Below are positions 2-62,987 of a stretch of 64,000 nucleotides of DNA, in pieces. Within the stretch, counting starts at the first letter, position 1, and every line of letters starts with the position of its first letter. The stretch is from positions 744,001-808,000 of the forward strand of contig JAVTLE010000017.1 in assembly GCA_033439295.1 (NCBI GenBank), written 5' to 3'. The notes beneath the pieces were generated by a model, which searched no databases, was not told where the DNA came from, and was given only the letters and a program-made list of their open reading frames with translations. This stretch comes from Deuterostichococcus epilithicus (taxonomy: Eukaryota; Chlorophyta; Trebouxiophyceae; Prasiolales; Stichococcaceae). The position numbers and the translations under genes are program-made.

Positions 2-2313
2 GCCCGCAGGGCGGTCAGCTTTGCGACGCAGCACGCCAGTCAGCGCTCGGCAGAGGACGCCAGCTCGCACAGCTCCCTCATGCAGCGCTTCTTCACACTG
101 CGGAAGAAGGTCAAACCGCGGCACGACCTCACGGGTGCGTTTTTTGTGCTCAAGTAAGCGAACAGTTCTTTACCTGGTGAGCCTCACGCCTGGTCACTCC
201 TGCCTGCGCCCGCCGGGCACGCTGCAACATGTCACATGTGTCGATCTGGAATTCTCACGTTCAGTGACTAGCTGCCCGCGGTTACTGGGCGGGCAACTTG
301 TAGCATGCGTGGCGGCGCTCAAGACTCGTTGCAGCCTCCTCTGCCGCCGCTGCTCTGCCGCTGCTGACCACCGACAGGCAATGGACGCTTTTCATGAGAA
401 TGTGCTCGGCGCATCGCTGTCTGTGTGAGCGGTACCGTCCCTGCTGCAACTGCAGGCCAGACGGGCAGCTTCCTGAACATGGCGCCGGAGGTGGTGTTGG
501 GGGAGCGGTACAACGAGTCTGCGGTAAGTTTCCACCCATAACTCCCACTTCGACACTCCGACCCCTCGCATGCAACTGCGCTGCGCTTGCCTCGGCGCCT
601 TTCAACAGCGCTGCGCTGCCGGCAGCTGGCGAGTGGCAGGTTCCAGAGGTGCTGGCGTGCAGTGTCACTGCGGACAGGGCTTGGGCCCTGGCTGAGTGTG
701 CTCGGGGCAGCTTTCTGCGCAGCCTTCTGCTGAGTCGGCTGCCGAGCCGCATGGGCACCACTTCCCGGCCTGCCGGTTGAGCGTCGACGAGCAGATGAAC
801 TCGGAATGCGACCGCACCTGCAGGAGACGTCCTCGTTGGCCGTTGTGTTTATTATAAGACATCACCACAGCGGCCGATGGCCTGCCAAATCGCCAGCAGA
901 CAAGCCCTTCCCTGAGCATGCTCGGTCACCCTGCAGGACCTGTTCTCACTGGCCATCGTGCTGTACGAGATCTTCACGAAGACCATCACCGCGGCGACGG
1001 TCATCGTGCTGGGCACGCCGCATGAGTGCTCCGACTACGCCTTCAAGGTGAGGGTTTAGGGTTTTAGGTTTTAGGTTTTAGGGTTGATAGTGCTCGGCTG
1101 TGCCTTCCAGGTGGAGCACAGCCTGAACCCACAATCACTTCCCCTCTGCGCCACCACGGATGCACCTGCCGCATTCGCGGGCCCGTCCGAGCGCCCGCCC
1201 ACCCAGCGGCGCAGCTCGAACCATCGCTGCCGGCAGCGCAGCTACAGGCGGCGTGTCTGGGCAAGGCGGCAGCCTTGGGGCAAGGCGGCAGCCCTGGCAG
1301 CAAGAGTGCTGAGACTATCTTAACTTGTCCACTCCAACGAGCGGGCATGAAGGTTGCGGGGGCCCAGTCGGCCCCGGCCCACGGGCTGCCAGCGTCAAAC
1401 CAGTCAGCAAAGTCTGCAGTTGTCGATGGGCGCCTCACCCAGAAGCCGCAGTGCAATGTCTGAACAGACGCACAGACTACATACGTACAAAACAATGCAA
1501 CTGCCACGCAGGTGGCGCGGGGGTACCGGCGGCCCTGCCCCATGAGCTGGCCGCGGGCGCTGTCGGAGCTCATCCAGGACTGCTGGGCACAGGACCCCGA
1601 TAACCGACCCACCGCTGAGCAGGCGTGTCCGGGCTCTTTTGCTGAAGATATATCACCTGATACTATTGCCGATGCATTACATTTATAGCGCCGAGCAGGT
1701 GCGTCCTGGCCGCTTCTGCTGAAAACATCACCTGATCTTCCTCTCTAATGCATTGCATCTGTGGCGGCTGCCGCCTTGCCCCGGCAGCAACTGCCATTGC
1801 AGCGCCCAGGCAGCACATCTGGCAGGCGTAGCGGGGCCGGCAGGGGCGCCCGGGGCTGTGTCCCAGTGCGGGTGCGAGCTGCAGAGGGGGGGCTCGTGCA
1901 GGCTGTGGAGGGCCTCTGCAGCAGTCTGTGGAGCAGCCCCGCTCGCCACCGCGGCCGGCCGCAGTGTCGCGGCTGCGCAAGCTCGAAGTGTGCGGGCTGG
2001 CTTTGGTGACCCTGTAGGCTTGCCACGCCTGACCCTGTGTGGGGCTCAGCCTTTCTGACTCTGCTCTTCCCAGGCGTTGGAGCGGCTGCGGAAGCAGGCG
2101 GAAGCAGGAGCAATATTTGCGCTTGGGGTAGCATCGGGGTAGCGACCTTGATGATCCGCCTTGATCCATAGCTTTCTGCCCTGACTCGTATAATGTTTCA
2201 TCCTGCAGGTGGTGGAGCGGCTGCGCACCATCCAGGAATCAGGGGCCATCACGCGCATGGACGAGGAGGAGGCCGAGGCCCTGGCAGCGCGGAAGGCCTG
2301 CTGCTGCTTCTAG
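2..2313 (+). CDS. Protein kinase, C-terminal part of catalytic domain (5' end outside window)
   Basis: Serine/threonine or Raf/TKL-like protein kinase; only the activation segment to the C-terminus is present. Exons read 2-134, 456-523, 937-1047, 1512-1622 and 2209-2313, with matching phases. The APE motif lies in SFLNMAPEVVLGERYNES, followed by the subdomain IX helix (DLFSLAIVLYEIF) and the subdomain XI signature (CWAQDPDNRPTAEQ). A run of about 40 basic/Ser-rich residues precedes the activation loop. The intron after 1622 starts with GC, not GT. An extra exon-like segment at 2074-2127 resembles the start of the last exon. The protein ends in CCCF, a possible lipidation site. Substrate cannot be told. 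The kinase call is firm, the family tentative. Confidence 0.88.
1048..1085 (+). repeat. Interstitial telomere-like tract (TTTTAGG/TTTTAGGG)
   Basis: Directly after the donor of the kinase intron at 1048 there are about five consecutive T3-4AGG(G) units. TTTTAGGG is the Chlamydomonas-type and TTTAGGG the plant/Chlorella-type telomere repeat. The tract is inside a gene, so it is not a chromosome end. Confidence 0.8.
1612..1760 (+). repeat. Imperfect tandem duplication of the kinase exon end and donor
   Basis: The segment from about 1615 (GAGCAGGCGTGTCC, then CTTTTGCTGAAGATAT) recurs from about 1692 (GAGCAGGTGCGTCC, then CTTCTGCTGAAAACAT), including the ATCACCTGAT and ATGCATT blocks. The period is about 77 bp. 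The first copy has a GC donor and the second a GT donor. Using the second donor would read into a stop. Confidence 0.75.
2074..2127 (+). other. Candidate alternative kinase exon (duplicate of last-exon start)
   Basis: This has AG before it, GT after it, and 18 codons in phase 0. Its peptide starts ALERLRKQAEAGAI, clearly related to VVERLRTIQESGAI at the start of the final exon (2209). It could be a mutually exclusive or cassette exon, or a decaying copy. Confidence 0.55.
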
Positions 2314-2425
2314 GGCTCGCACATTGAAGATGCGCTGCTGCCAAGACCCCCCCCTCCCGGGGGGGTCCAAGGGAGCCGGCGCGGCAGAGGCCATGGCAGC
2401 GCGGAAGGCCTGCTGCTGCTTCAGG
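2280..2425 (+). repeat. Duplicated kinase C-terminal coding segment in the 3' flank
   Basis: Bases 2284-2312, coding for the last residues AARKACCCF, recur almost exactly at 2395-2423. In the copy the stop codon is lost (TTCAGG instead of TTCTAG). Confidence 0.85.
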
Positions 2426-62400: not shown

Positions 62401-62987
62401 ATGAGTTCTTGAGGTGTCTGGCTGAACAATCGACCCACCCCCATGCCGTGCGCGCGGATGCCCTCACGCTCAAGGGCCGCCACCGCGTCGCGCAGCACGT
62501 TCTCGCGGCGGCCCGTGATGGCCACGGCCGCGCCGTGCAGCCCTGTGTGCGCAATAAAACAATGTGGAAAACAGGGCGAGCTATACGCTAGGCCCTGCAT
62601 ACACTCCCTTGTCAACTGCCACATGCCTAGCCAGCAGATTGATGCTGCGGTTGAAAGGCAATTTTCTGTGCTGTTCTGCATGCACTAAAGCAACCGAGAC
62701 GCGATGATTTGTGAACCGGAGGTTCCCGGGGCAGCACCTAGCTGCCGGGTGATCTCAAAGCCGATGCCCGAACCGCCGCCGGTGATGAGCGCCACCTGTT
62801 GGAGTGCGGAAAATACTTCGGCGGAGTGACATGACTCAGAAATGACTGTAAGCCTATCAGTGCCATGCTCCGTCTGCCGTGCTGAACTTTTGCATGACAG
62901 CGTGCGCCGCAGTATGTATGTGGAAGTGCGGCATGTCACCTTGCCGGCCAAGACATCCTGGCGGTAGGGCGACTGGTCCTGTGCCAT
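59498..62987 (-). CDS. DECR2: Peroxisomal 2,4-dienoyl-CoA reductase (SDR family)
   Basis: NADPH-dependent reductase removing double bonds during peroxisomal beta-oxidation of unsaturated fatty acids. Eight exons close into 298 aa, the size of animal DECR2: 62940-62987, 62738-62795, 62439-62542, 61755-61899, 61262-61389, 60529-60649, 60084-60218, 59498-59655. Motifs: ITGGGSGIG cofactor loop, [56 protein letters not shown] (catalytic Lys), [11 protein letters not shown] and [10 protein letters not shown]. The usual SDR Tyr is absent from YxxxK, as expected for this subfamily. The C-terminus is SKL, a canonical PTS1 peroxisomal import signal. Start ATG at 62985-62987 gives [16 protein letters not shown]. 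Confidence 0.95.
59960..60135 (-). repeat. Echo of DECR2 exon 60084-60218 in the downstream intron
   Basis: CAGGAACACCACGCCCATGGC then AATGTCCCACTTGCGGCCCA (60101-60141) is echoed at about 59969-60010 as CAAGAACACCATGCGCATGGC then ATTATCCCGCTTACGGCCCA. Confidence 0.82.
60415..60595 (-). repeat. Echo of DECR2 exon 60529-60649
   Basis: GATGCCGTCGGCGCCCCACT at 60571-60590 is echoed at about 60451-60470 as GATGCTGTCGGCGCCCCACT, with flanking similarity down to about 60417. Confidence 0.75.
61365..61520 (-). repeat. Echo of DECR2 exon 61262-61389 start
   Basis: GAAGGTGCCCACCGTGTCGA then TGACTGCA (61360-61394) is echoed at about 61491-61524 as GAAGGTGCCCGCCGTGTCGA then TGACTGCA, acceptor included. 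Confidence 0.85.
61860..62045 (-). repeat. Echoes of DECR2 exon 61755-61899 start
   Basis: CGCCCATCGCACGCAGTCTT at 61861-61880 is echoed at about 62004-62023 (TGCCCACCGTACGCAGTCGT) and more weakly just before it (CTGCCCACCGTTTTCTGCC). Confidence 0.72.
62325..62490 (-). repeat. Echo of DECR2 exon 62439-62542 end
   Basis: ATGCCGTGCGCGCGGATGCCC then GGGCCGCCACC (62443-62480) is echoed at about 62328-62365 as ATGCCATGCGCGCGGGTGCCC then GTCCGCCACC. Confidence 0.75.

Follow-up and report, generated by a model that had tools for sequence, protein, structure and literature searches.

Direct copies of exon ends, usually reaching from the splice junction inward, recur far more often than by chance in the introns beside those exons in a stretch of 64,000 nucleotides of the green alga Deuterostichococcus epilithicus (C15:744001-808000, on contig JAVTLE010000017.1; the whole stretch is hereafter referred to as the window). 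An initial annotation of the window had described these copies, here called exon echoes, as decayed tandem duplicates of exon-intron junctions. The observation itself was confirmed, with corrections. It is tentatively proposed that a splice-junction-anchored, exon-specific process repeatedly places copies of exon ends, which begin at the splice site and extend inward, in the intron alongside, a route which is foreseen by no duplication mechanism known to the authors and which would provide introns with decoy junctions and extra length.

The window belongs to a 46.8-Mb genome of 21 contigs and was chosen since echoes were visible there, whereas the comparison regions C1:400001-500000 and C5:700001-800000 and the hold-out C11:500001-550000, which together with the window amount to 314 kb, were chosen without regard to echoes. 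Self-comparison was performed after masking of periods of up to 12 bp, with match +1 and mismatch -1, and pairs with a score of at least 20 were retained, at a spacing (d) of up to 600 bp in the window; pairs closer than 50 bp, none of which came from blastn, were taken from a separate ungapped rescan. Exons are predictions by a small gene finder based on a hidden Markov model; 12 exon segments read by hand served as seeds, and self-training used the window, C1 and C5. In these three regions it predicted 551 exons with a median length of 116 bp and 516 introns with a median of 248 bp, with the splice consensus CAG|GTG(C/A)G at donors and YGCAG|G at acceptors; its application to C11 without retraining gave 82 exons and 79 introns. 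In the predicted gene models CAG|G stands on both sides of splice sites. The TBC/Rab-GAP protein read from exons of the window shows 93% identity to its nearest homolog and 75% to a Myrmecia bisecta protein, and a residue-by-residue check against the nearest homolog revealed no internal gaps and no need for the residues encoded by the echoes, which the TBC homologs lack. Kinesin and SDR pieces were recognised by a Pfam match only, and Rfam, at gathering thresholds, gave zero matches in the window.

A total of 43 direct pairs were identified in the window, against 0 inverted pairs and 0 pairs in each of 10 dinucleotide shuffles. With d of up to 1000 bp, 27 direct pairs in C1 and 13 in C5 reached score 20, and no inverted pair did so in either; the hold-out gave 10 direct and 2 inverted pairs at this score and, in five shuffles, 1, 0, 0, 0 and 0. 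Within 1 kb, inverted self-matches of this score are confined to C11. When the score was lowered to 16 at the same maximum spacing, inverted against direct pairs numbered 21 vs 71 in the window, 14 vs 60 in C1 and 17 vs 35 in C5. The 43 window pairs range in identity from 64% to 97% and in d from 55 to 261 bp, with a maximum at 100-150 bp (27 pairs); 34 of them join a predicted exon to non-exon sequence, occur on both strands and occupy all eight 8-kb bins. The earlier count of more than 25 places on both strands, with a gradient of identity from almost identical to faint, is thus borne out. The description of the echoes as pervasive suits the window, in which 28 of 240 junctions (11.7%) bear one, and is regional beyond it, the values elsewhere being 9/374, 6/418 and 3/158 (1.4-2.4%). 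The window is therefore unusually echo-rich, its density being about five to eight times that of the other regions.

The pairs are specific to the boundary between exon and intron. At score 20 or above and d of up to 400 bp, the 86 pairs in the 314 kb comprise 59 exon-intron pairs, 13 exon-exon pairs and 14 that are neither, and when the annotation was shifted 1000 times, exon-intron pairs averaged 32.6 and never exceeded 48. At score 14 or above in the window, C1 and C5, repeats with d of 90-170 bp joined exon to non-exon 66 times, non-exon to non-exon 9 times and exon to exon 11 times (a single shuffle per region gave 6 in total), while for repeats with d of 8-49 bp the corresponding numbers were 3, 28 and 23. 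Intron-to-intron siblings, that is, pairs at the same spacing between two stretches of intron, were also sought: about 15 were expected at score 20 or above and 5 were seen, all sharing a copy with an exon echo, so that no primary case was left, and at score 16 about 21 were expected and 2 primary cases seen. This expectation rests on our assumption of one intron-to-intron event per exon-intron event and lets both sides decay, and therefore tests whether faster decay explains the missing intron-to-intron pairs.

The copies are, moreover, anchored at splice junctions. The junction-side end lies within 8 bp of the facing junction in 38 of the 59 exon-intron pairs, against a mean of 4.6 and a maximum of 12 in 1000 annotation shifts. 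Local, recurrent, direct copies tied to junctions and ending as intron sequence, as the initial annotation had it, are thus supported against both the shuffles and the shifted annotation. In the 53 splice-type pairs of the window, C1 and C5 (33 acceptor, 20 donor), 36 matches end at -4 to +7 bp from the junction, one ends at 11, three fall short by at least 9 bp and 13 extend 12-48 bp into the intron; duplication across the junction, as first described, applies to these 13, and most copies stop at the junction. A profile was made for the 43 splice-type pairs ending within -12 to +15 bp, a set that omits the deep-intron runners among the 53. The 29 well-anchored pairs among them are about 80% identical on the exon side near the junction, and 9-20 bp past it their intron identity is 0.28, about the level of mismatched pairs, against about 0.59 under two-sided decay; in all 14 pairs of at least 80% identity it is at most 0.42. 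Flanking similarity outside the match is on average at chance level. Anchoring is strong, not absolute.

That the copies normally come with the acceptor or donor, as first described, is right insofar as most matches end at the junction. Within the same end limits, AG is kept in 17 of 26 acceptor echoes and GT in 6 of 17 donor echoes, and CAG, which is common, stands at the boundary of 12 of 19 well-anchored acceptor echoes. The pyrimidine fraction 5' of acceptor echoes is 0.594, which lies between the 0.510 of randomly chosen CAG in introns and the 0.617 of the full set of predicted acceptors, and the log-odds of donor positions +3 to +6 are 0.10 for echoes, -1.06 for random sites and 0.90 for real ones. 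Echo flanks hence resemble decayed splice sites yet do not match the real flank, and they may be either old junctions left behind or splice-like sites at which copies attached.

The aligned length has a median of 61 bp and the gap between the copies a median of 60 bp in the 59 exon-intron pairs. Since the gap is at least 34 bp in 56 of them (the others being -4, 7 and 21), the term tandem is wrong for most. The copied part of the exon correlates with exon length (rho 0.47, 53 pairs), and no echo reaches the opposite end of its source exon (0/55). Some junctions carry two echoes, for example those of the exon ending at C1 26859 and of TBC exon 40930-41039. Echo-bearing introns have medians of 442, 380, 433 and 446 bp in the four regions against 278, 265, 218 and 266 bp for those without; this suits an extension of existing introns, but perhaps long introns only offer more room. 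The 46 spacers of exon-intron pairs with gaps of 25-130 bp show no mutual likeness except for one overlapping pair, nor any excess of hairpins. Single searches of the genome, with simple and very common words skipped, were made for three of the young spacers and for four outer flanks, and each matched only itself (3/3 and 4/4). The initial statement that most copies are frameshifted or contain stops is only half borne out: in the aligned portions of the 59 pairs a net frameshift is present in 24 and an in-frame stop in 8, and 31 show neither. Identity at the three codon positions is 0.82/0.83/0.76, which would be expected of an unconstrained echo that was never coding, with the exon changing mainly at third positions.

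Several simpler regularities were considered and rejected. A fixed jump length was suggested by the anticorrelation of aligned length and gap (-0.68, 42 pairs), which arises mostly because that set was preselected for d of 90-170 bp and which drops to -0.26 over all 59. Whole-exon duplication is not borne out, d being related to exon length with a Spearman coefficient of 0.28 (P 0.05) and lying within 6 bp of it in 9 of 49 pairs, with 5.9 expected. Derivation of the echo flank from another intron fails as the four flanks match only themselves. An order of insertion could not be read from divergence, the far echo appearing younger at C1 26859 (89 vs 80%) and at window position 37288 (83 vs 75%) and the reverse holding at window position 14476; these sites are too few.

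The pair cited as the best example by the initial annotation (37887/37990) is a separate case and is unrepresentative of slippage. It concerns a real exon of the TBC (Rab-GAP) gene at 37765-37927 on the minus strand (WINCLLIREVPFG...), which is flanked by echoes on both sides: a donor-type echo of 37765-37873 lies at 37617-37725 (minus strand, d=148, 79%), and the flagship echo, consisting of the acceptor and the start of the exon, lies at 37990-38037 on the same strand and is a copy of 37887-37934 with 47 of 48 positions identical. The 55-bp insert between the flagship copies (37935-37989, minus strand) comes from a Zepp-like long interspersed nuclear element (LINE) repeat, of which it comprises the 3' end, at 96% identity, together with the CCAAGT tail; the repeat match spans 37932-37998. 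The flagship pair is thus a truncated LINE-end insertion between long target-site-like direct repeats of 48 bp. Its single mismatch falls in CCTTTGGGC (gene orientation), itself within the repeat match, and the T found there is also present in repeat copies L002 and L004; hence the duplicated 40-odd bp may, judging from these letters, be fully identical and the insertion recent. In the sequence compared, no other spacer strongly matches a repeat, one giving 77% over 43 bp (E 7e-4).

A pattern search of the genome for the repeat with its CCAAGT-type tail gave 173 matches; among the matches listed (about 100) the repeat occurs on 15 of the 21 contigs, mostly in one centromere-like cluster per contig, with lone copies at C9:2348692, at C12:2231070 and in the window. 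On its own contig, the window is separated from the cluster of the LINE-like repeat (C15:901174-912735) by about 95-170 kb. The LINE label is based on a weak similarity of L002 to the endonuclease domain Exo_endo_phos, below threshold at E 0.002 and 18.4 bits (cut-off 24.5). Copies L003 and L005-L007 are nested or serial 5'-truncated copies in which the junctions of tail to body recur at certain sites, among them CCATAGCG and TTTGGGTTTCGG. In Coccomyxa, Zepp LINEs are described as forming clusters, one per chromosome (PMC3446292), and the present repeat, found mainly in one cluster per contig among the matches listed, is likened to that described clustering and not to the published Zepp sequence; Zepp-like is therefore used by analogy.

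The best explanation for the remaining echoes, though weakly held, is templated insertion primed at splice-site motifs. Pieces of exon ends, about 25-115 bp inward from the junction, would enter the neighbouring intron as copies in direct orientation, would land usually 35-100 bp from the real junction and would then decay without coding constraint. The generator may be template switching, akin to templated insertion by polymerase theta, during the repair of an intron break or stalled fork, with the splice-site consensus (YGCAG|G, CAG|GTG), which recurs as cryptic sites in introns, acting as the priming microhomology; priming there would make copying begin at the junction and run into the exon. 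The break, the priming and the enzyme are the inferred parts of this scheme. Templated insertions by polymerase theta carry short copies. Template switching is slightly favoured over a junction-spanning duplication, and it would account for the restriction to exons, for the sharp edge and for unrelated spacers.

Several observations weigh against this explanation. CAG has a density of 3.1 per 100 bp inside exons and is so frequent that a microhomology of 3 bp alone cannot single out the junction, and the internal CAGs remain unused. Inverted templated insertions would be expected too, yet none reaches score 20 in the window, C1 and C5 and only two do so in C11. In none of 53 pairs does the copied part make up more than 67% of its exon (permutation P 0.0004), a two-thirds limit that template switching does not predict; it also fails to explain the absent inverted copies and the unused CAGs. 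The 13 of 53 pairs that extend 12-48 bp into the intron would suit an ordinary junction-spanning duplication better, and so would the outcome of a gapped comparison of flanks. For 12 young pairs, hand-picked from the 26 with at least 80% identity and excluding the flagship, this gave a mean z of 1.6 with 6 of 12 above 2, a result which the splice consensus explains in part, and local alignments of flanks at window position 11646, C5 64604 and C11 429 (p 0.003-0.018) speak against sharp anchoring. The hold-out adds little: for d of 90-170 bp it contains 9 exon-intron, 3 non-exon and 5 exon-exon pairs (shuffles 1.4), and its four exon-intron pairs at score 20 have junction offsets of 2, 2, 19 and -15.

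The alternative that deserves most attention is a local duplication spanning the junction, with a unit of about 100-145 bp produced by slippage or staggered-break fill-in, the extra copy being tolerated since splicing can skip it. Its intron halves would erode fast, while the exon half would stay recognisable because one copy is selected, perhaps refreshed by conversion from exon to echo. The direct orientation, the splice-like flanks of both the real junction and the echo, the repeated echoes at single junctions (C1 26859; TBC exon 40930-41039), the pairs crossing into the intron and the presence of a pure tandem class with d of 55-78 bp all agree with it, as does the description, in the passages concerned, of tandem duplications arising by fill-in of 43-54 nt overhangs (PMC8355091). 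It is nevertheless considered somewhat less likely, since intron identity past the junction is 0.28 where about 0.59 is predicted, since same-spacing intron-to-intron pairs number 0 primary cases against about 15 expected even though 28 non-exon pairs with d of 8-49 bp are visible, and since the spacer is at least 34 bp in 56 of 59 pairs. Simple tandem duplication followed by decay failed on flank similarity, on the junction profile and on the missing siblings, and survives only as the version with conversion. Copying of an exon-bounded RNA, either a splicing intermediate or a cDNA, into the intron in cis would likewise account for exon specificity and junction precision and is possible, though improbable, no direct mark of it having been found. 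In 43 pairs tested, the sequence past the echo junction did not run on into the next predicted exon, with a mean of -1.7 compared with -2.5 for the null; the two high scores come from predicted neighbours that overlap the echo flank. The intronic CAG included in 12 of 19 acceptor echoes would be lacking from spliced exon RNA. A cryptically spliced pre-messenger RNA as template was rejected, as the inner edges of the copies show no clear excess of GT or AG: AG is present in 3 of 20 donor-type and GT in 2 of 33 acceptor-type pairs, and the edge is directly preceded by CAG in 3 of the 20 donor-type pairs.

The remaining readings were each given very little weight. That all echoes are target-site duplications of severely 5'-truncated Zepp-like LINE insertions, with the spacer as the LINE remnant, holds for the flagship with its 55-bp spacer and 48-bp flanking repeat; as a general cause it is refuted by the spacers, since none of the 45 others matches the repeat in the sequence compared and, for the three young ones, the genome contains no match but the spacer itself. 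Two isolated copies, L029 and L030, lack a comparable duplication in the 1.5 kb upstream of the tail. As a reading of all echoes it is highly improbable. Equally remote is intron birth, in which an AG|GT tandem duplication or an introner created the intron and the echo marks it as young. It draws on the CAG|G on both sides of splice sites and on the CAG at the boundary of 12 of 19 well-anchored acceptor echoes, but only 8 of 26 acceptor-type exons begin with the GT needed for a donor at the echo, and the spacers, the flagship's excepted, form no dispersed family. The initial suggestion that the process explains the many introns is likewise unsupported, because d equals the predicted intron length in only 1 of 43 pairs and TBC homologs reject the extra exon behind that case; intron birth is not shown by the data. 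Least credible of all are chance similarity, a coding-composition artefact or dead alternative exons. The coding sequence is GC-rich and some of the 13 exon-exon pairs are probably protein repeats; against this stand the 0 pairs in the shuffles, copies up to 86-97% identical, codon positions without trace of past coding constraint, which speak against dead exons, and the failure of all 55 echoes to reach the other exon end. These readings are refuted for the class, though single pairs of less than 70% identity may be spurious.

Besides those of the flagship exon, echoes in the TBC gene (all minus strand and acceptor-type) include a copy at 39421-39537 of exon 39224-39365 (SGYVQGINDL...), whose match extends 48 bp into the intron, one at 39955-40014 of exon 39808-39908 and two, at 41162-41213 and 41234-41277, of exon 40930-41039. 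In the kinesin gene (plus strand), a donor-type echo of exon 47414-47530 is located at 47574-47646 and an acceptor-type echo of exon 47942-48085 at 47845-47901, both with d=113, and an acceptor-type echo (88%) of exon 48923-49048 at 48811-48837, whose spacer (48838-48916) and flank (48696-48815) match nothing else in the genome. The SDR gene (minus strand) carries acceptor-type echoes at 61488-61523 of exon 61262-61389 (86%) and at 61972-62052 of exon 61755-61899, and donor-type echoes at 62317-62386 of exon 62439-62542, at 60405-60468 of exon 60529-60649 and at 59943-60031 of exon 60084-60218. The spacer (61395-61487) and flank (61519-61640) of the first of these again match nothing else in the genome, and a degenerate telomere-like run, AAAGGGTTTGGA, lies inside that spacer at 61396-61427. 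Elsewhere in the window, interstitial telomere-like repeats of the plant type (TTTAGGG variants, up to 2 mismatches) give 4 matches at 1048-1085 and 1 at 10727-10740, where 0.04 are expected in the window.

The other echoes belong to predicted exons. On the minus strand, acceptor-type echoes are found at 59132-59161 (exon 58997-59042), 55995-56039 (exon 55877-55948), 37342-37389 and 37464-37505 (near copy, 75%, and far copy, 83%, of exon 37161-37288), 15149-15188 (exon 14938-15046; borderline, as 30% of the copy is itself predicted exon), 14541-14620 and 14667-14740 (near and far echoes of exon 14331-14476), 13277-13351 (exon 13067-13225, 82%), 12116-12217 (exon 11879-12088) and 11704-11768 (exon 11575-11646; the similarity takes in some 18-28 bp of intron); donor-type echoes are found at 26006-26043 (exon 26166-26241, 86%) and 17160-17215 (exon 17283-17452). 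On the plus strand, exon 21206-21442 has a donor-type echo at 21496-21562 and a far acceptor-type echo at 20995-21039, the latter paired with a weaker, nearer copy at 21100-21133. Further acceptor-type echoes on this strand lie at 21811-21870 (exon 21957-22101), 7513-7548 (exon 7603-7791, the match beginning 33 bp inside the exon and similarity extending to the left), 6447-6498 (exon 6583-6684) and 5170-5225 (exon 5310-5489), and donor-type copies at 23007-23072 (exon 22774-22924) and 5932-5997 (exon end 5764-5910), the last being almost purely tandem with a gap of -4. A copy of 2271-2337, the end of a predicted terminal exon in an uncertain gene model, is present at 2383-2448. A second class, of near-pure tandem duplications with a unit of 55-78 bp, a gap of about 0 and 70-94% identity, lies mostly outside predicted exons (window 1613-1766, 25979-26099, 33611-33712 and 56459-56600; C1 33362-33482; C5 65912-66059).

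Known systems resemble the echoes in part. The local direct copies of tens of bp near a break recall both staggered-break fill-in and polymerase-theta templated insertions. Small tandem duplications come from staggered-break fill-in (PMC8355091); the copies there are adjacent, and a preference for splice junctions was not met in the passages on fill-in. Intron gain by tandem duplication, whereby duplicated exon sequence becomes intron (PMC2891723), shares with the echoes the turning of duplicated exon sequence into intron and the AG|G motifs at the edges; in the passages on it, however, the intron equals the duplication in size, whereas here the echo sits inside a longer intron with a mostly unrelated spacer. 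Neo-introns of Daphnia, which arise from staggered double-strand breaks (PMC4202315), are described as having direct repeats around the insert, repeats inside the intron and a repeat of the exon end at the opposite intron boundary, but the repeats shared with the exon measure 4-12 bp and mark new introns, while those described here measure about 25-115 bp, are mostly decayed and accompany no intron birth. The passages concerned of PMC2891723 and PMC4202315 do not describe long, spaced, junction-anchored copies of exon ends inside longer introns. Among the matches listed in a literature search, no title or abstract opening describes such echoes, which is weak evidence of novelty as most subscription journals lie outside the search.

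The origin of intron sequence and the lengthening of introns are an old question, and the intron interiors of this alga hold a readable record of it, consisting of copies whose source is known, which diverge to graded extents and mostly have one sharp edge at a splice site. If the anchoring holds in related species, it would suggest that splicing signals and changes in the DNA are connected. If the echoes prove instead to be old junction-spanning duplications, they would provide a large sample of intron growth and of the tolerance of such duplications.

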